The position numbers were made by a program, and so were the translations under genes. 20,071 bases of DNA from a virus. The notes under the pieces were generated by a model, which was not told where the DNA came from, made no database searches, and saw only the letters and a list, made by a program, of their open reading frames with translations. The stretch lies in the IMG/VR virus record IMGVR_UViG_3300031919_000001, positions 1 through 20,071 of that record; one strand, given 5' to 3'. Below are positions 2,637-10,416 of this stretch, one piece after another (position 1 is the first letter of the stretch; every line of letters begins with the position of its first letter).

Positions 2637-3515
2637 CTATTCAAATAATACTTGTGCAACACCTACAACAAATCCAACAGCAGCACCAATAGCAGCACCA
2701 ACTGGTCCACCTATCATATTACCAACAAACGCTCCATTTGCAGTCCAACTAGCAATAAATAAGATTTTAGAGATAGTAGAACGTTTTCTTAAAAAACTAG
2801 ATTTACCATAACGTATAGTTCCTCTCATACTTCCTAATGCTACACGCTCAAAATCTAAAGCTTCAAAAGGCCATAAAATATTCTTTGCTGCGAAGGTAGT
2901 ATCAGTCTCTATACCTGTCATTGCAGTCATATAATATAATTTCATTATCTCGGCATAAGAATCTGTAGTACCTTTCTGCCAATTAAGTATTGCATTATTT
3001 TTAGCACTGACATTCGGAAGTATCTTAAACTTAGCTTCAGCACTTATTGCTGCTAACTTACTCATTCTCTTACGTTCAATTCCAGCTTTACCTATAACAA
3101 AAGAACTACTGATAACAGCATTATTATTTCGCATATCTAACTTAAACTGAGGAATACTATCACGAAGTAAAATATCATCAGTTATATCTGTCGTAGCTCT
3201 AACTACCCCATTAACTTCAGTCATTTGAGCTTGCTCATTAAAGGTTGATTCCCATACTGCTTCTATATCTAAACCAGACATAAACTTTCCGAACATATCA
3301 TACAAGGAAGGGAAGTCAGCAATAGCATAACCCATACCAAGAAAGGCGTCAGTTATATTCTGATCTATATAATCAGTATATGGAGAATTATTAATAATGT
3401 CTGTACGAACTCCTGCAACAGTACCCAGTAAATTAGAATGTTTCTCCTCAATATAAGGAGCATATCTAATCATCTTTTCTGTATTCGCAGACTGTCCACC
3501 ACTACCACTACCCAT
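2637..3515 (-). CDS. Internal/ejection-type virion protein candidate, paralogue B
   Basis: This 292-aa protein starts at ATG 3515 after AAGGA, which overlaps the stop of the previous gene. It is a clear paralogue of the upstream gene at 3525-4451. Shared blocks include MIRYAPYIE near the N-terminus, FPSLYDM followed by GKFM and GLDIEA in the middle, AEIMKLYY near residue 190, and LWPF followed by LDFER before the C-terminal region. The last 45 residues form a hydrophobic glycine-zipper-like segment (GGPVGAAIGAAVGFVVGVAQ) that could insert in a membrane. Position after the tail hub together with such a tail fits an internal protein released on DNA entry. That role is inferred from context. P22 gp7, gp20 and gp16 occupy a similar map position, but I see no sequence match to them. 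Confidence 0.8.
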   Translation of the reverse strand: MGSGSGGQSANTEKMIRYAPYIEEKHSNLLGTVAGVRTDIINNSPYTDYIDQNITDAFLGMGYAIADFPSLYDMFGKFMSGLDIEAVWESTFNEQAQMTEVNGVVRATTDITDDILLRDSIPQFKLDMRNNNAVISSSFVIGKAGIERKRMSKLAAISAEAKFKILPNVSAKNNAILNWQKGTTDSYAEIMKLYYMTAMTGIETDTTFAAKNILWPFEALDFERVALGSMRGTIRYGKSSFLRKRSTISKILFIASWTANGAFVGNMIGGPVGAAIGAAVGFVVGVAQVLFE

Positions 3516-3524
3516 AATTAATCC

Positions 3525-4451
3525 TTAATAAGTAAATGCTGCTCCCATACCAAGTATAGCACCAATACCTGCACCCCATCCAGCTCCACCAGCAGCAGCA
3601 GCTGTAGTAGATGTAACTCCTCCTACTGTCGATGTAGTTGCTGCTGTTGCCGGAGCAATACTACCTCCAACCATAGCTCCCATAGCAGCACCAGTTAATG
3701 CGCCACTAATAACTCTAGAAGCTGTTGATGCTCCAGCTACATCAGTCTTTTCATTTACTGCACCCTGCAACGCACCTAAAGCTGCGCGTTCAAAGTCAAG
3801 AACAGTAAAAGGCCATAACAGATTCTTAACTGCCATAGCATAATTAACTTCATCTACATCAGTTTTTACTGAGTAATACAGTTTCATAATCTCAGCATAC
3901 GTACCAATTACTAATTTATTCCAATTAAGATGTGTTTGCCATCTCTCTTGTGCTACAGGAATAAGACGATACTTTAATTCTGCAGAAAATTTAGAAACTA
4001 ATTTTGTTTTAGAATCTTCAATAAGTGCTTTACCAACAACATAAGAACTACTCATAACAGCATTAATATCCCGCATACCAACTTGAAGTCTTGGTAAAGA
4101 ACTCTCTTCTATCTCATCATCAAGTAAAGCACTTTCAGCAACAATTAAAGCATTTACAGCAGGAGATTCTAATGTACTCTCATACATCTGATCCCACAAA
4201 GCTTCAATATCCAGCCCTGCCATAAACTTCCCGTACATATCATACAGAGAAGGAAAGCTTGCTATAACATATCCTGTACCAAAGAAAGCATCATCTACTT
4301 CAATGTCAGTATAGTCAGAAAACGGGGATTTATCTATTGCTGCTACCCTTTTAGCGTAGACAGTATTTAAAAAATTAGTGTGTCTTGCTTCAATATACGG
4401 AGCATACCTAATCATTGTTTGTGTATTTTCTGGAGCACTTCCACCACCCAT
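3525..4451 (-). CDS. Internal/ejection-type virion protein candidate, paralogue A
   Basis: The start chosen is ATG at 4451 (MGGGSAPENTQ...), 308 aa. It has a strong GGGAGGT site, matches the N-terminus of its paralogue, and follows the previous stop by one base. An in-frame extension to 4529 would run back into the upstream gene. Residues 1-230 align along their length with the protein at 2637-3515. The C-terminal 70 residues differ from it: they are very rich in Gly, Ala and Thr, with GxxxG-type spacing (GALTGAAMGAMVGG and GGAGWGAGIGAILGMGAA). Glycine zippers of this kind are known from membrane-inserting proteins. A role in membrane penetration during DNA ejection is plausible but inferred. 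The domain itself is not one I can name. Confidence 0.82.
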   Translation of the reverse strand: MGGGSAPENTQTMIRYAPYIEARHTNFLNTVYAKRVAAIDKSPFSDYTDIEVDDAFFGTGYVIASFPSLYDMYGKFMAGLDIEALWDQMYESTLESPAVNALIVAESALLDDEIEESSLPRLQVGMRDINAVMSSSYVVGKALIEDSKTKLVSKFSAELKYRLIPVAQERWQTHLNWNKLVIGTYAEIMKLYYSVKTDVDEVNYAMAVKNLLWPFTVLDFERAALGALQGAVNEKTDVAGASTASRVISGALTGAAMGAMVGGSIAPATAATTSTVGGVTSTTAAAAGGAGWGAGIGAILGMGAAFTY

Positions 4452-4452
4452 T

Positions 4453-4917
4453 TTACTTACCTCCCATCTCATAGATGAAACTTCTAAACTGTTCAGAACA
4501 GCCAGATATTTCAGCCATCTGCCATACACGAGAATTTCTTGAAGTAAATGTAATTGCTTTACATTCTTCTTTTACTGCAAGATCATATAAGACTTTAAGG
4601 TTTCTATGTAATTCCATATCCTTTATCGGATACATAGAATAGAAACATTGAATGACTAATTCTTTTCTGTTCAACATTTTATTAAGTATGATCTTCGTAA
4701 TTGCTATACTATGTAAAATTTTCTTTTCGTCAAGCAAAGCAAAACATTGAGCTTTATCACTAAGAAGATCTTGTAACAGCTCATTGAAATAATCAGACAT
4801 ATACTCTGTTGGTACTTCATCAGCTTTAATACAAGCAAATTTTATTGCGTCCCAAAACATAGGAATTTGTACTGACAAAACTCTGTAAATAATATCATCA
4901 TAAGTATTAGTAGGCAT
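4453..4917 (-). CDS. GNAT-like acyltransferase-fold protein of the virion operon
   Basis: The start is probably ATG at 4917 (MPTNTYDD..., 154 aa), since GGAG lies 6 bases upstream. An alternative ATG at 4929 has a weaker site. Either start overlaps the end of the preceding hub-half gene. The pattern suggests a GNAT (GCN5-type N-acetyltransferase) fold: an N-terminal helical part (residues 15-50), a beta strand with a self-reference to the environment (CFALLDEKKI), a strand ending in QCFYSMYPI, then an alpha-beta stretch LYDLAVKEECKAITFTSRN typical of GNAT C-termini. The canonical acetyl-CoA loop (R/QxxGxG/A) is not obvious, so activity is doubtful. Similar GNAT-like proteins occur near tail-hub genes in other podophages. 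The fold call is moderate and the role unknown. Confidence 0.6.
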   Translation of the reverse strand: MPTNTYDDIIYRVLSVQIPMFWDAIKFACIKADEVPTEYMSDYFNELLQDLLSDKAQCFALLDEKKILHSIAITKIILNKMLNRKELVIQCFYSMYPIKDMELHRNLKVLYDLAVKEECKAITFTSRNSRVWQMAEISGCSEQFRSFIYEMGGK

Positions 4918-6142
4918 CTGCAACTCCATTCACTTTAATGTAGTCAAGTTCAAAGTATTCATACTCCGCGGTCTTGACTCGAATTCTAAATTCTCTTCCA
5001 TAAGCAGTAATAAATACTCTACCAATAGAAGATACTGTATACCAAGGAGTCTGTGTAAAACTTCCTGCTTTATTTCTCCGATAGTCTATTGCAGCATAAA
5101 GATCATTTGTTAAGTCTACACCAAACTCAAGCGAGAAGATAGTCTTTCCAGCTCTAACTCCTAAGTCATAAATATCAGTACAAATTTCAAACGGGTCAGT
5201 GACTATTGTAGATGAAGCAGTAACATACTGTATACCAGATTGGTAATCAATACCAGTGATGTTTGGTGAACATTTGCCAAGACTACCCGTTACAACATCA
5301 TAAACATAGCCAACTGACCCATCACAAATATATACAAGATTATTAAATTTATCGTAAGTTAGTACTATGTTACTAGTCATTTCTGAAAGATACTCAGAAT
5401 AATCTAACATCTGCATACCATCAGAAAGTTTCCACAACTTCCCAAAACTATCTACAAAGAAATGTTTAGTCTCATCACCAGTTACAGCATGTTTACCCTT
5501 TAAACCTATTCGATAGATAGTATTCAACCCAAATACAGCACCAGCAGGAACAAGCAAGGATATACCATTCTCTCCATAAACTACAACTTTATTATTCAAC
5601 TTCTTTACAGCATAAACTAAACCCTTCCAGTCAAGTGGTCTTTCACCTGCAACATTACCTTGACCTATAGTGAAATCCAGACTTCCAATTTCAGACCACT
5701 TAATCCAATTCTCTTTTACTGAAGAAACAAAGTAGATATAATCATCATTTGGTTTAAGAGTCAGTGTAGCAACAAACAGACCATCTGCTATTATACCACT
5801 ACCCCATGTTCCAAGCAGAGACAATGTAGCAGCAAAAGCATCTTCGGCTATATTAACACTTATCCAATCACCAAGTAAAGTAGGATAAACAATTAACTTA
5901 CCACGATCTGGGGTATTAGTAGAATCATTTAAAGTACAGTCAAAAGTAAGATCAAGTGCAGGGTTTCTATCAGCCGGAGTAGTAAGCCCGTACACCCCGC
6001 TGCCTACGGCAGTCGCAGAAATGCTTCCATCAGAAATAACAATTCCAATACTAGCATCTACAAGAAGTTGAGATGGAGGTACGGTTACTCTAAACTCTGG
6101 TTGCCCAGACACAACTCTATTATCATATAGAATAACAGACAT
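4907..6142 (-). CDS. C-terminal half of a gp10-like tail-hub/stabilization protein
   Basis: 411 aa, start ATG 6142 after GAGGA. From about residue 135 the sequence has the pattern of P22 gp10-type hub proteins (packaged-DNA stabilization, closing the portal channel): NWIKWSEIGSLDF, then AGERPLDWKG, VVVYGENGISLL, GDETKHFFVDSFGKLW, and a C-terminal beta domain with EICTDIYDLGVR and REFRIRVKT. The usual N-terminal portion is missing and seems to be encoded 2.6 kb upstream at 8791-9330. In its place are about 95 residues I do not recognise, then two copies of a beta-type repeat (near residues 96-113 and 116-129; AFAATLSLLGTW and LFVATLTL) that also ends the upstream half. The family call is from recalled patterns. 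The split is an inference from the two lengths and their complementary content. Confidence 0.7.
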   Translation of the reverse strand: MSVILYDNRVVSGQPEFRVTVPPSQLLVDASIGIVISDGSISATAVGSGVYGLTTPADRNPALDLTFDCTLNDSTNTPDRGKLIVYPTLLGDWISVNIAEDAFAATLSLLGTWGSGIIADGLFVATLTLKPNDDYIYFVSSVKENWIKWSEIGSLDFTIGQGNVAGERPLDWKGLVYAVKKLNNKVVVYGENGISLLVPAGAVFGLNTIYRIGLKGKHAVTGDETKHFFVDSFGKLWKLSDGMQMLDYSEYLSEMTSNIVLTYDKFNNLVYICDGSVGYVYDVVTGSLGKCSPNITGIDYQSGIQYVTASSTIVTDPFEICTDIYDLGVRAGKTIFSLEFGVDLTNDLYAAIDYRRNKAGSFTQTPWYTVSSIGRVFITAYGREFRIRVKTAEYEYFELDYIKVNGVADAY

Positions 6143-6164
6143 AACATTCCTCTATCTAACTAAC

Positions 6165-6599
6165 TTAAACCTCAACAACGGCATATACGTCAGCAACACC
6201 AGTAGAACTTATATTCCATAAGATAAGACTGGAACTTACCGGAATAACAAGACCTTTAGGAAAAGTCCAGATTATTCCTACGCCAACAGTAGCCGGAAGT
6301 GAAACTCTTCTAAGGTAGTTAGAAGGAACTGTTGGACCTGTTCCCCATGCAAGAGCTGACCGAACTACACCAGATGCCAGAACATCATTGGGGTCTTCTA
6401 CCTGAAAGTTAACCGGATTAGTAGGTGTTATTCCTATTGCCTGTGGTCTACCAAGACCAAAAGTAGATGGTATTGCTGCAGCTAAAGTAATACCAATTTC
6501 ATATACCTTAACCCTGCCAGGAGTTGCGCCAGTCAAAAGTTCCCAACAGCAATTATCAATAGTTACATTCGTCGTTCTTACTCCAAGTGATAATCTCAT
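6165..6599 (-). CDS. Phage structural protein of unknown role, 144 aa
   Basis: Start ATG 6599 is preceded by AAGGAG. The protein is mostly beta-forming, rich in Val, Ile, Gly, Pro and Thr, with no charged clusters, as expected for a small exposed virion protein. Visible blocks are RVKVYEIGITLAAA, STFGLGRPQAIGITP, AWGTGPTVPSNYLRR, WTFPKGLVIPVSSSL and a C-terminal VADVYAVVEV. I recall such proteins among uncharacterised structural proteins of environmental phages but cannot name the family. It lies between the tandem paralogues and the C-terminal hub half, so it is one of four genes separating the hub halves. It may be a fibre, collar or decoration component. Coding status is secure; function is unknown. 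Confidence 0.78.
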   Translation of the reverse strand: MRLSLGVRTTNVTIDNCCWELLTGATPGRVKVYEIGITLAAAIPSTFGLGRPQAIGITPTNPVNFQVEDPNDVLASGVVRSALAWGTGPTVPSNYLRRVSLPATVGVGIIWTFPKGLVIPVSSSLILWNISSTGVADVYAVVEV

Positions 6600-6610
6600 T
6601 TTTATTCTCC

Positions 6611-7048
6611 TTACGCTAGTGTAACTTTTATATTAGTAACTTTTAAAATCTGCCCATCAACGGCTGTTACATCCCCACCAAAGTCTATGTAATGAATAAT
6701 AGCATCCGTGTAATCATCACCAGGAGTAACTGTCGAATTATCATAAATGATTGCTCCCGATGCAATAATAGAACCTCCGTTCGCTGTCCACTCAGCATTA
6801 CTCCAAGACATAACAGCGTTATCAAGAGTCGTACTGACTGTTACTGCAACTCCGGAGAGTATTGCTCCACCAGTCGTATAACCAAGACCATCAGCTACTT
6901 CACTTACGGATACATCTGAGTAATCTTGGTGAGTATCCTTGTCATAGGTAAACCCACTCACCATTAACATTATCTTGAAAGTATCAGTAGAAGCAATCTG
7001 CCCTTTCAGTAACATTCCTTTAACATAATTTGACAGCGCATTTGACAT
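6611..7048 (-). CDS. Structural protein, second of two tandem paralogues
   Basis: 145 aa, start ATG 7048 after AAGGAG. It aligns end to end with the gene at 7059-7493. Both begin MS..LSN, share DxFKIxLM.xGF.xDKDTH near residues 23-41, a GYT.....L.GVAVT block near residue 60, a W(S/D)N..WTA block, and end in YIDFGG followed by a short repeat of beta strands (N-I-x-V-x-L-A). The pattern fits a compact beta-sandwich. Identity between the two copies is moderate, so the duplication is old. The role is unknown; position among hub and adsorption genes points to a tail or collar attachment. No enzymatic residues stand out. Confidence 0.8.
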   Translation of the reverse strand: MSNALSNYVKGMLLKGQIASTDTFKIMLMVSGFTYDKDTHQDYSDVSVSEVADGLGYTTGGAILSGVAVTVSTTLDNAVMSWSNAEWTANGGSIIASGAIIYDNSTVTPGDDYTDAIIHYIDFGGDVTAVDGQILKVTNIKVTLA

Positions 7049-7058
7049 AATAAACTCC

Positions 7059-7493
7059 TTATGCGAGTCTTACTTCAATGTTAGAGATTGTCGCAACTCC
7101 ACCATCTGCTTGAGTCTGCTCTCCACCAAAGTCTATATAGCCAATAATAGGATCTGCTGTAGGAGTTGTAACAGTATCATCAAAGATAATCGCTCCAGGT
7201 GATGGTCCAATCGCTCCAGCTGATGCAGTCCATTGAACATTGTCCCAAGTAACTTCACACCTGTCATCTGTATCATCTTCAGTTACTGCCACTCCAGTAA
7301 GAACCTTCGTATTCTGCGTGTACCCATTTCCAGTTGCAAGCTCATATGCAGATATATCTGCATAAGCATGATGAGTATCCTTATCGAACACAAATCCTGT
7401 ATCCATTAGGATAATCTTGAAACTATCGTTAGCAAAGTCAATTACTTTACTTGCGAGTAGAAACTTAAACTTGTTTGATAATGTTGCTGACAT
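7059..7493 (-). CDS. Structural protein, first of two tandem paralogues
   Basis: 144 aa, start ATG 7493 with a very strong AAAGGAGG site, one of the best in the window. It may therefore be made in high copy. The protein contains SFKIILMDTGFVFDKDTH, AYELATGNGYTQNTKVL, GVAVTEDD and a C-terminal block PIIGYIDFGGEQTQADGG. The same blocks in the same order are found in its neighbour at 6611-7048. I recall comparable proteins as unnamed structural genes in other phages. It directly follows the propeller-type fibre gene. Together these genes form the set that separates the two hub halves. Confidence 0.8.
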   Translation of the reverse strand: MSATLSNKFKFLLASKVIDFANDSFKIILMDTGFVFDKDTHHAYADISAYELATGNGYTQNTKVLTGVAVTEDDTDDRCEVTWDNVQWTASAGAIGPSPGAIIFDDTVTTPTADPIIGYIDFGGEQTQADGGVATISNIEVRLA

Positions 7494-7528
7494 TTCAATC
7501 CTCCTTTAGTAGATTTTATGTTATACTA

Positions 7529-8791
7529 TTAATCAATAACTAGTCCTATACTATAAACAGTAGAATCAATATTTGGAGTAAAAGTAGCATCTACTGTTCC
7601 ATCTACATTTAATATAGCTAATCTATTTAATGCTACTCCATCAATATCTGTAAAAGCCCCACCAACTACTAATTTATTGTTAGCCATTTCTACTACAGTT
7701 ACAGAACTATAGTTTATATTAGGATTAAAATCAGTATCTAGTACCCATTCTGAGCTAAATTTTGCGATATGGTTTCTAGTTACCCCATTAACAGTTGTAA
7801 ACATACCACTAATTATAAACTCCCCACTATCTAATACAATTATCTCTGACACACCTGCATCTAAATAAAGATTAAAACTCGTATCTAATGTCCCATCTGA
7901 AAATAATCTAACGATATAGGTTCGATCTACTCCATTTATGTTCGTAAATCCTCCTCCAAGTATAATGTCTCCATTAGATAGAGTCACAATAGCACTAGCA
8001 TACGTATTTTCGCCTGCACCTAAAATAGTATTGAAACTCGTATCTATTGCTCCAGTTACTTCAAGTCTAGCAATGTGTTGTTTTGCAACTCCTCCTACTG
8101 TATCAAAATTTCCACTAATTATTATCTTATCATCACTTTGAATAGCTACAGTTCTTACAGTCTCATTAGCGTTTGGGTTAAAATCTATATCAACTGTATC
8201 ATCAAGGTTAAATCTAGCTATAGCATTCCGTGTAATTCCTCCAACAGTCACAAAGCCTCCAACAATTATTAGTTTGCCGTCAGTTTGTAATATTACCTTT
8301 TCAACAAAGTTACTAACTATTACATTAAAATCCTCATCTAAACTTCCATCAGAGTTTATTCTAGCTAGTCTATATCGAGAGACTTCATTGACCGTTAGTT
8401 TAGTAAACGCCCCGCCAATCCATATTTTTCCATCGTCTCGAATAAGCATATCATAGACATAACTATTTGGATAAGGCAAAAAGCTTTCATCTAGAATTCC
8501 TGTATCATCTAACTTAGCCATTCGATAAGTCAATACTGAATTGCAAGTATAAAATCCTCCACCTATAATTATAGATTCAGAAGGAGGAGGAGGAGGAGAA
8601 GGAGTCGGTACATAGTCTTTATGCCAGTAACCACAAGGTGTATGAGTAGGAGTTATAGGTTTGTTACCCTGTCCAGCATCTTTCCAAACAGGGTTAGTTA
8701 TTGTGGCTAACTTATCCCCTTCGTTAGAAATAGTCTTATTCACAACTGGAATAATTTTAAATGGTGCTTGCGCTGTTTTCCAATCTGCCAT
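7529..8791 (-). CDS. Seven-bladed Delta-60-repeat (DUF5122-like) propeller protein, probable tail fibre/adsorption protein
   Basis: The start chosen is ATG at 8791 (MADWKTAQAP...), which overlaps the previous stop as TAATG; an in-frame ATG at 8800 is possible. The protein is 420 aa. Residues 1-60 are a small N-terminal part, probably for virion attachment, followed by a proline hinge (TPSPPPPPS, residues 63-71). The rest is seven repeats of 49-53 residues. Each has a (G/S)Gx(F) turn (at residues 77, 126, 177, 226, 279, 328 and 377), then often NGV.RN.IAR, then DGTLD.SFNP. This is the Delta-60/DUF5122 pattern, which folds as a beta-propeller. The final VYSIGLVID could close the ring with blade one. 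Binding of a surface glycan or protein is inferred from domain type and place. Confidence 0.82.
   Translation of the reverse strand: MADWKTAQAPFKIIPVVNKTISNEGDKLATITNPVWKDAGQGNKPITPTHTPCGYWHKDYVPTPSPPPPPSESIIIGGGFYTCNSVLTYRMAKLDDTGILDESFLPYPNSYVYDMLIRDDGKIWIGGAFTKLTVNEVSRYRLARINSDGSLDEDFNVIVSNFVEKVILQTDGKLIIVGGFVTVGGITRNAIARFNLDDTVDIDFNPNANETVRTVAIQSDDKIIISGNFDTVGGVAKQHIARLEVTGAIDTSFNTILGAGENTYASAIVTLSNGDIILGGGFTNINGVDRTYIVRLFSDGTLDTSFNLYLDAGVSEIIVLDSGEFIISGMFTTVNGVTRNHIAKFSSEWVLDTDFNPNINYSSVTVVEMANNKLVVGGAFTDIDGVALNRLAILNVDGTVDATFTPNIDSTVYSIGLVID
8582..8596 (+). repeat. Five AGG triplets encoding the Pro hinge of the propeller protein
   Basis: The plus strand has five consecutive AGG units; on the coding (minus) strand these are CCT codons for residues 66-70 of the propeller protein. 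Slippage here would change hinge length in whole codons and would not shift the frame. Confidence 0.85.
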
Positions 8792-9330
8792 TACACCCAT
8801 CCACCTAACTGACTCAAAGTTAAATCAAAAACACTTGCATTAATCGAAAGACCTATACCTGGAACATCTGCATCTGGAGCTCCAATAACTACCTGCCCAT
8901 TATAATTCAAAATACTATTTGCCGTAGGCAAGTCAGTCGTTACACTATACACTCCAGTAGCTTCATCCCTAACTACAGCAACAGCACCATTACTTAAGTA
9001 AACATAATTATAAAAATCTACTGCAGACCAAGTAGAACCCGCAGTAGTTGTTAACTTCAGTACTAATGCTCCGCCTACCCATTCATAGATCTTAGTACCA
9101 CTACAAACAAGAATTAAATTTACGAACACAAAAAGCTGGGGAAAAGGAAAGGCATCAGTAATATCACCTGTATCCATTCTCGTAAGCTCGTCGATTGCTG
9201 CCAGTACACCATCACGCCCGACAGCTCCCTTGGATTCTACAAGGTATTTCGCATCACGAGGAGCTCGTTTTGAAGCTCTAAGTCCTCTTGCGAGTTGATC
9301 AGAGGTTATAGTGAAAGTAAATTCAGCCAT
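8791..9330 (-). CDS. N-terminal half of a gp10-like tail-hub protein
   Basis: 179 aa, start ATG 9330, overlapping the upstream stop as TAATG. Blocks that resemble the beginning of gp10-type hub proteins include RDAKYLVESKGAVGRDGVL (residues 26-44), FPFPQLFVF, CSGTKIYEW, TWSAVDFYNYVYLSNG (100-115) and NYNGQVVIGAP (142-152). An intact hub would continue after this last block into a segment like YFVSSVKENWIKWSEIG, but here the protein stops at residue 179. That missing continuation is found in the gene at 4907-6142. The last 17 residues (INASVFDLTLSQLGGWV) resemble the repeat present in that other half. The two matching parts sum to roughly 430-450 residues, close to the ~470 residues of P22 gp10. 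Whether the halves assemble together is inferred. Confidence 0.7.
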   Translation of the reverse strand: MAEFTFTITSDQLARGLRASKRAPRDAKYLVESKGAVGRDGVLAAIDELTRMDTGDITDAFPFPQLFVFVNLILVCSGTKIYEWVGGALVLKLTTTAGSTWSAVDFYNYVYLSNGAVAVVRDEATGVYSVTTDLPTANSILNYNGQVVIGAPDADVPGIGLSINASVFDLTLSQLGGWV

Positions 9331-9686
9331 TAAAGAACTCCATTATTCGTAGAATCAAAATCTTTAAACTCTTTTGGCATAACTTTAGGCTCAGTAGTTA
9401 TATCTACATCCTGCATAATTACCAACCTTCGCTCAATCTCCGGAACAGCTTTATCTAAGATTTCTTCGTACTCTAACAGTGGATTCTTTCCTTCAATCAT
9501 CTCCACTACACTTTGAACAACATCCTTCTTTCCTTTAAACTCAGGATGAGCTGTGTAAAACGCTGTATTAATCTTATGTAATGCTGCATGATTTGCCAGT
9601 AAATTCCCGATTACCTCGGGGATCATAAGTAACGTCTTTTCTACTGCGGCATTTATAATTTCATTTCTTTCACTTTCAGTAATCAT
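9330..9686 (-). CDS. Conserved small phage protein of unknown function, 118 aa
   Basis: Start ATG 9686 follows a GAGAGGATGTT-type site. The protein is mostly helical and acidic. Blocks include FYTAHPEFKGKKDVVQSVVE, IEGKNPLLEYEEILDKAVPEIERR and a C-terminal STNNGVL. I recall small proteins of this type sitting beside hub or head-completion genes in other podophages but cannot name a function. It lies between the gp4-like gene (10 bases away) and the hub N-terminal half (TAATG overlap), which makes a small connector or assembly factor a reasonable guess. There is no membrane segment and no signal peptide. Confidence 0.75.
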   Translation of the reverse strand: MITESERNEIINAAVEKTLLMIPEVIGNLLANHAALHKINTAFYTAHPEFKGKKDVVQSVVEMIEGKNPLLEYEEILDKAVPEIERRLVIMQDVDITTEPKVMPKEFKDFDSTNNGVL

Positions 9687-9696
9687 AACATCCTCT

Positions 9697-10416
9697 CTAT
9701 CTATAACTATCTGAATTTATTGAGTATCCTGCTCCATAAGGACCACTTGCTGGAACATGCATATAAACTGGTTCAACCTTCAGCGAAGAATTAAGTATAA
9801 CCATATCATCATAAGAAGACTTTGCTATTGCAGCAACCTCGGTAAATACTGCTCTTCCATACTCAGGAGACAAACGAACAGCTAAATTAAATATCATTGG
9901 CTCTTCATAATAACTAGGAAATACTAACGTATCAGTAGTAAGACCGAATGAACCTGTTTCAACAAAGGGTTTAAAACTGTTAAGGTAAAGTACCTCTGCT
10001 GCATCAGGTACTGGCCAAAGATAAATGTTAGCTAATGGAAAAGTAGGATGAAAAAATAAAACTGTTGGTCGACCAGTAGTTTCCTTACTAATTATACCTT
10101 GATACTTACTCTCCGAGATAATATCTACTGGGTGTGTAATTCCACTACTGTCAAGAATATATGCACCAAGAACTTGGTTAGGTCTGACAGTAGTAATATC
10201 CCCACCAGATCCCCAAGTATAAACTGCAGTACCTGATTCAAGTGTAACACTTTCCTTCACAGATGCAAAGACACGATTGCTCAAAGCTCCCCAAGATCGT
10301 AACATGCTCTGAAAAGCAGAAAGAGCTTCTGTCTGTCTAACAGTCTCAATAGTTTCTCCGCTACTTAAAGCTCCAATCTTCCGAAGGCTTGCACTTAACA
10401 ATTCTGACACTAACAT
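9697..10416 (-). CDS. P22 gp4-like head-completion/tail accessory protein
   Basis: 239 aa, start ATG 10416 after GAGGT. The protein begins with a helical segment (LLSASLRKIGALSSGE) typical of head-tail adaptor proteins and continues with QTEALSAFQSMLRSWG. The block RPTVLFFHP (residues 116-124) followed by IYLWPVP (131-137) is characteristic of the P22 gp4 (tail accessory factor) group as I recall it. The C-terminal part has FPSYYEEPMIFNLAVRLSPEYGR. In P22, gp4 binds the portal vertex after packaging and forms the platform for gp10. Its position just before the hub gene, as in P22, supports the call. Unlike P22 gp4, I have no evidence of a muramidase activity here. Confidence 0.8.
   Translation of the reverse strand: MLVSELLSASLRKIGALSSGETIETVRQTEALSAFQSMLRSWGALSNRVFASVKESVTLESGTAVYTWGSGGDITTVRPNQVLGAYILDSSGITHPVDIISESKYQGIISKETTGRPTVLFFHPTFPLANIYLWPVPDAAEVLYLNSFKPFVETGSFGLTTDTLVFPSYYEEPMIFNLAVRLSPEYGRAVFTEVAAIAKSSYDDMVILNSSLKVEPVYMHVPASGPYGAGYSINSDSYR

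Follow-up and report, generated by a model that had tools for sequence, protein, structure and literature searches.

The minus-strand genes at 8791-9330 (the N gene) and 4907-6142 (the C gene) correspond to a single podophage tail hub/nozzle protein, the former to its front part and the latter to its back part, and we regard this identification as confirmed. The hub/nozzle seals DNA in the phage head and opens on adsorption. Solved examples of this class are single chains; in the window, by which we mean the whole 20,071-nucleotide stretch analysed, the protein is encoded by two ORFs. We consider it quite probable that this short-tailed phage makes its hub as two polypeptides, with an N plus C pair per subunit associating in trans. 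The initial annotation had described one gp10-like hub gene split by a gene cassette, and continuous ORFs in relatives, together with Foldseek matches to nozzle/hub proteins, bear this out. The likeness to gp10 holds for the fold and the gene position but not for the sequence, which falls outside the P22 gp10 family.

On the minus strand, the window encodes in order the large terminase, portal, coat and adaptor proteins, a gene at 9330-9686, the N gene, the propeller gene, three genes of ~144 aa, the C gene and a gene at 4453-4929. This is the gene order of the structural module of a short-tailed phage. The features of the hub locus are listed here.

9697..10416, minus strand: head-tail adaptor gene (P22 gp4-like), matching phrog_637 head-tail adaptor at 1.3e-7, upstream of the hub slot
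8875..9330, minus strand: hub module of the N gene, residues 1-152, whose profile matches residues 5-167 of continuous hubs
8791..8874, minus strand: tail of the N gene, residues 153-179 plus stop, with a motif common to the C gene head
7529..8800, minus strand: receptor-type propeller gene, DUF5122 at 1.4e-56
7059..7493, minus strand: small cassette gene of the phrog_644 family, present in the gap of 49 of 49 split locus pairs
6611..7048, minus strand: paralogue of the 7059..7493 gene, ~47% identity
6165..6599, minus strand: small cassette gene, present in 17 of 49 split loci
5720..6142, minus strand: head of the C gene, residues 1-141, variable, with copies of the N-tail motif
4907..5719, minus strand: hub module of the C gene, residues 142-411, whose profile matches residues 175-450 of continuous hubs
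4453..4929, minus strand: gene directly downstream of the hub in split and continuous phages alike

The coordinates and strand first given for the N and C genes were correct. The N gene had been said to stop after NYNGQVVIGAP, which is wrong, as the 179-aa gene continues for another 27 residues (DADVPGIGLSINASVFDLTLSQLGGWV). Each cassette gene had been credited with its own Shine-Dalgarno (SD) sequence; SD-like sequences precede three of the four. The exception, judged by its upstream bases, is the propeller gene; it shares 10 bases with the N gene, and its true start may be its second ATG. The P22_Tail-4 match of the adaptor gene lies below the cut-off (0.012). The product of 9330-9686 (118 aa) matches part of a larger protein encoded upstream of the coat gene in continuous phages, and its relative comes after the C gene in L010 and L012. 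Further along the window, 2637-4529 holds two adjacent paralogous genes (~43% identical), and this pair recurs downstream of the hub in many relatives.

Relatives were gathered using both window genes as queries, and profiles were built from residues 1-152 of the window N protein and residues 141-411 of the window C protein. In about 20 relatives (L050, L051, L053-L071), both profiles match, in order, within a single ORF of 434-478 aa, the N profile at approximately residues 5-167 and the C profile at approximately 175-450, with only a short loop between them. Across the junction these continuous relatives read ...CNFKGQAVGGNVVSSWHDCDETFYVWSKIG..., whereas in the split genes the N part ends ...CNFNGQVVIGAP plus the tail and the C part resumes ...NWVKWSKIG.... 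Thus, the loop that joins the two parts in continuous relatives sits exactly at the break. The two arrangements also occupy the same slot, as the order is adaptor, hub, d1 and d2 in continuous loci versus adaptor, N, cassette, C, d1 and d2 in split loci, so that d1 and d2 lie behind the hub either way. The family profile of the 4453..4929 gene gave matches of 2e-29 to 3e-42 beside continuous hubs. The matching parts (152 and 270 residues) sum to ~420 residues, compared with 470 for the P22 chain 9jg6_a. Because both profiles match continuous ORFs in order and the split layout occurs in 49 non-identical locus pairs, chance is ruled out. The same continuous ORFs, with the nozzle/hub Foldseek matches of a continuous relative and of the window C half, contradict the possibility that the halves are always separate and unrelated to hubs.

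Sequence databases say little about either half. Pfam scans of single half sequences returned no match and PHROG at best weak ones: in a single-sequence scan, PHROG 3287 matched the N and C parts in order, at 0.23 and 2.3e-4. The P22 gp10-type Pfam family was absent from the matches of the N, C and continuous alignments, and hhalign against a "stabilization protein" gave 0.2%. In a sequence search of PDB chains, the continuous profile found only a weak match to the VP1 nozzle, and the N and C profiles alone only chance-like matches. A tblastn search of N against known phages found nothing.

The fold is more informative. The AF2 model of the continuous relative L050 (pLDDT 84.5, pTM 0.83) had only phage tail nozzle/hub chains at ranks 1-21 in a Foldseek search of the PDB, including those of Pa223, VP1, SU10, Pam1, P22, Sf6, crAss001 and T7. 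The window C protein was modelled with a confident core from approximately residue 144 and a head mostly below pLDDT 50; on its own it matched the nozzle family at ranks 1-15 in the PDB. Foldseek matches among viral predictions included several proteins named P22 Gp10 DNA-stabilising. The seven-bladed propeller plus platform of solved nozzles is therefore matched by L050 and the window C protein, and the N part is assigned to it by homology. In the window and relatives alike, the hub gene follows the head-tail adaptor gene.

By alignment, the N module covers the N-terminal platform and velcro strands, two complete blades of the propeller and strands one and two of the blade that follows; the C module comprises the remainder of that broken blade, the remaining blades and the C-terminal platform. 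In the L050 model, the break falls between strands 163-169 and 180-183, within a four-stranded group. As the break lies inside a propeller blade, neither half should close the propeller alone. The possibility that each half is a complete, independent fold is contradicted by this position, seen in the model of the continuous relative and extended by homology to the window N protein. The same position makes it unlikely that the N protein has left the hub to work alone, for example as a fibre anchor, with the C protein forming a modified hub, since an N module that ends within a blade should not fold as a complete propeller. Some N genes would fit such a role: the N module carries an adhesin-like extension in two relatives (an RCC1-like propeller in L133 and repeats in L005), and L009 and L010 have an additional N gene whose tail is repetitive. 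Against it, N is under strong purifying selection and was present at every split C locus checked that had enough upstream sequence. A hub built from N plus C pairs is the most economical reading, and two chains are most likely needed to assemble the portal plug.

The break can be compared with sites where other nozzle proteins carry an insertion. The T7 nozzle insertion is in a loop of blade 3 (PMC6702177), that of SU10 is between blades 2 and 3 (PMC9509320), and in crAss001 IG1 (163-292) is between blades 2 and 3 (PMC10172136). Judged from the model, the break is at or near this site, either in the loop of the nozzle-domain insertion or next to it; blade numbers come from the order of the strands, and the insertion site was located from that order and from residue numbers rather than from superposed structures, so the equivalence is approximate.

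Split N and C genes were found in 49 non-identical locus pairs, the window among them (a few are near-copies), with gaps of 1.4-5.8 kb; in two further contigs the gap measures roughly 7-8 kb. No gap is without genes, and each includes a member of the phrog_644 (~144-aa) family; the profile of this family had no match in the continuous loci searched. Each of 20 records searched whole (25-60 kb) has one N locus and one C locus, and no intact hub copy was detected in these 20 records, for which IMG/VR gives no completeness. The window is a metagenome-derived virus fragment, and an assembly chimera, a pseudogene or the recent decay of one hub gene could in principle produce a broken ORF. Given that the layout recurs in non-identical pairs from many metagenomes, with open frames, SD-like sequences and low dN/dS, we assign this explanation a negligible probability.

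In a first tree, the split and continuous labels required three changes, owing to L069, which is continuous with a very long branch, and L052. A second tree, which leaves out L069, L052 and L025 (a near-copy of L024), places split and continuous rows on the two sides of one branch (SH-aLRT 95). Thus, with these three rows left out, the split sequences, which come from uncultured phages, are one clade. As the tree alone is unrooted, it would also accommodate an ancestral two-gene state with continuous hubs arising by fusion. We consider this very unlikely, because in solved structures the distant nozzle/hub proteins of P22, SU10, T7, VP1 and Pa223 each consist of one chain, an argument for a continuous ancestor.

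Several loci depart from the simple pattern. L069 (6548-7852) encodes a short continuous hub with an N part nearer the split type, and its placement by the split clade rests on the very long branch. L052 (5987-7840) is continuous at the junction; a lone in-frame TAA interrupts its hub at another place, behind a pair of Ig-like-looking segments that are inserted between two blades, and an ATG comes two codons later. Either this TAA marks a further break of a different kind, or it is a sequencing error. In L004 (6941-8914) and L023 (7929-9827) a single ORF encodes two tandem C modules, of which the second is missing its first ~22 positions. In L009 (2545-3884) and L010 (3472-4742) a pair of N genes lies side by side, and the tail of the second is long and repetitive. 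The N/C dosage is therefore not always simple.

Both genes carry extra coding sequence at the break. A motif of ~20 aa in the N gene tail occurs again at the C gene head. When the N-tail profile was run against ~3,000 ORFs of the loci, 12 of the 13 non-N matches at E<1 were C genes, in their heads (hypergeometric p ~1e-20, only indicative because the ORFs are related). In the window, IGLSINASVFDLTLSQLGGW aligned with ISVNIAEDAFAATLSLLGTW with a score of 40, which was equalled in 3 of 2000 shuffles. Tails longer than ~20 residues are found in about a third (counting distinct N genes) to about half of the N genes, and many N genes end within ~10 residues of the break. As only part of the N genes are tailed, pairing cannot depend on the shared motif. 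The C head varies from 66 to 453 residues among complete split C genes (453 in L018). Relative to L001, dN/dS is low in the N core (0.12), the N tail (0.11) and the C core (0.19) and higher in the C head (0.60) and the propeller gene (0.52); dS in this comparison is high (~0.8-1.9), so these values are rough. Both hub cores are under purifying selection and the 27-residue N tail is conserved, whereas the C head and the fibre gene evolve fast.

Introns, split inteins and other ligation systems exist in phages, and the coding parts here would join cleanly within the loop, so a mature hub of one chain deserves consideration. The extra coding sequence on both flanks, conserved in the N tail and long and variable in the C head, and a gap full of conserved genes make such joining highly improbable. 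In addition, there was no Rfam match at the gathering threshold, introns included, and no intein family in Pfam scans of the N and C gene families. The locus was therefore not assigned to the class of intron- or intein-split genes, as neither a catalytic RNA nor an intein domain was matched at the junction.

The initial annotation had called the genes between the halves an adsorption cassette. This suits the propeller gene, with its DUF5122 repeats and several propeller families in relatives; for the three ~144-aa genes such a role is unproven. The propeller gene consists of an N-terminal anchor (...NPVW...HTPCGYWHK, ~8615-8800), a proline-rich linker and a beta-propeller. The NPxW...HxPCGYW anchor is common to cassette genes with unrelated C-terminal domains; a PCGYW-type anchor occurs in the cassettes of 23 of the 49 split loci; PCGYW is absent from the continuous loci. 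Large cassette genes of relatives encode RCC1, Kelch, BNR, NHL or lectin-type domains, often behind this anchor, and in L133 and L005 the extensions named above are fused to the N module itself. These sequence patterns suggest that receptor-type modules dock at the break. Among the small genes, a relative of 6165..6599 adjoins the portal gene in MW202691, and relatives of the 144-aa gene are neighbours of minor tail genes in Mycobacterium phage NoShow and precede a lectin-like gene in phiCbK.

The best solved structural matches are the nozzles of Vibrio phage VP1 (gp16, 8zkk/8zkm; 2.7e-18) and Pseudomonas phage Pa223 (9nwi; 1.5e-19), each one chain of 512-521 residues rather than two; the weak sequence alignment with VP1 runs through the break. 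The P22 gp10 and Sf6 gp8 hubs match in fold (9jg6_a, 3.8e-11; 7sg7_S, 4.5e-11), in position after a gp4-like adaptor and in similar total length, but are one chain, and membership of their sequence family was not detected for the hub here. The SU10 gp17, T7 gp12 and crAss001 gp44 nozzle/muzzle proteins share the propeller and platform; their insertion is within the same chain, whereas here the chain ends and other genes lie between. The closest named phage is Desulfofustis phage LS06-2018-MD01, which has the same gene order and whose hub (WBK39757.1) aligned with the C part at 3e-15. In GenBank this hub is a continuous 453-aa gene, unlike the split genes here; its N part gave no significant alignment, its distance from the N profile being too great. 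Literature searches covering mainly open-access papers found no hub or nozzle encoded by two genes.

In the arrangement we propose, the N chain would contribute the beginning of the platform together with the velcro strands, two blades and the opening pair of strands of the one after; the C chain would complete that broken blade and add all later blades and what is left of the platform. The two would co-assemble in trans into a closed propeller that lies below the adaptor and gates DNA. The nozzle-insertion region may survive as the N tail and C head, which may pair via their shared motif, the rest of that locus having become a cassette of separate genes. The receptor-type propeller, which has an anchor of its own, would plausibly dock close to the break. 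More tentatively, and with rather less than even confidence, we suggest that the nozzle-insertion region has become a multi-gene docking site, in which an N plus C hub bears a composite distal structure of N tail and C head, and PCGYW-anchored propellers are swapped as a cassette with the DNA-gating core untouched. Such an arrangement may carry a selective advantage.

The finding also helps annotation, as both halves lack a Pfam match and have at best a weak PHROG match. If the two-chain hub is real, a DNA gate can be assembled from two chains and broken through one blade. The nozzle-insertion loop would then be a permissive site that evolution has used in different ways, and the location of exchangeable receptor genes would be linked to the architecture of the gate.
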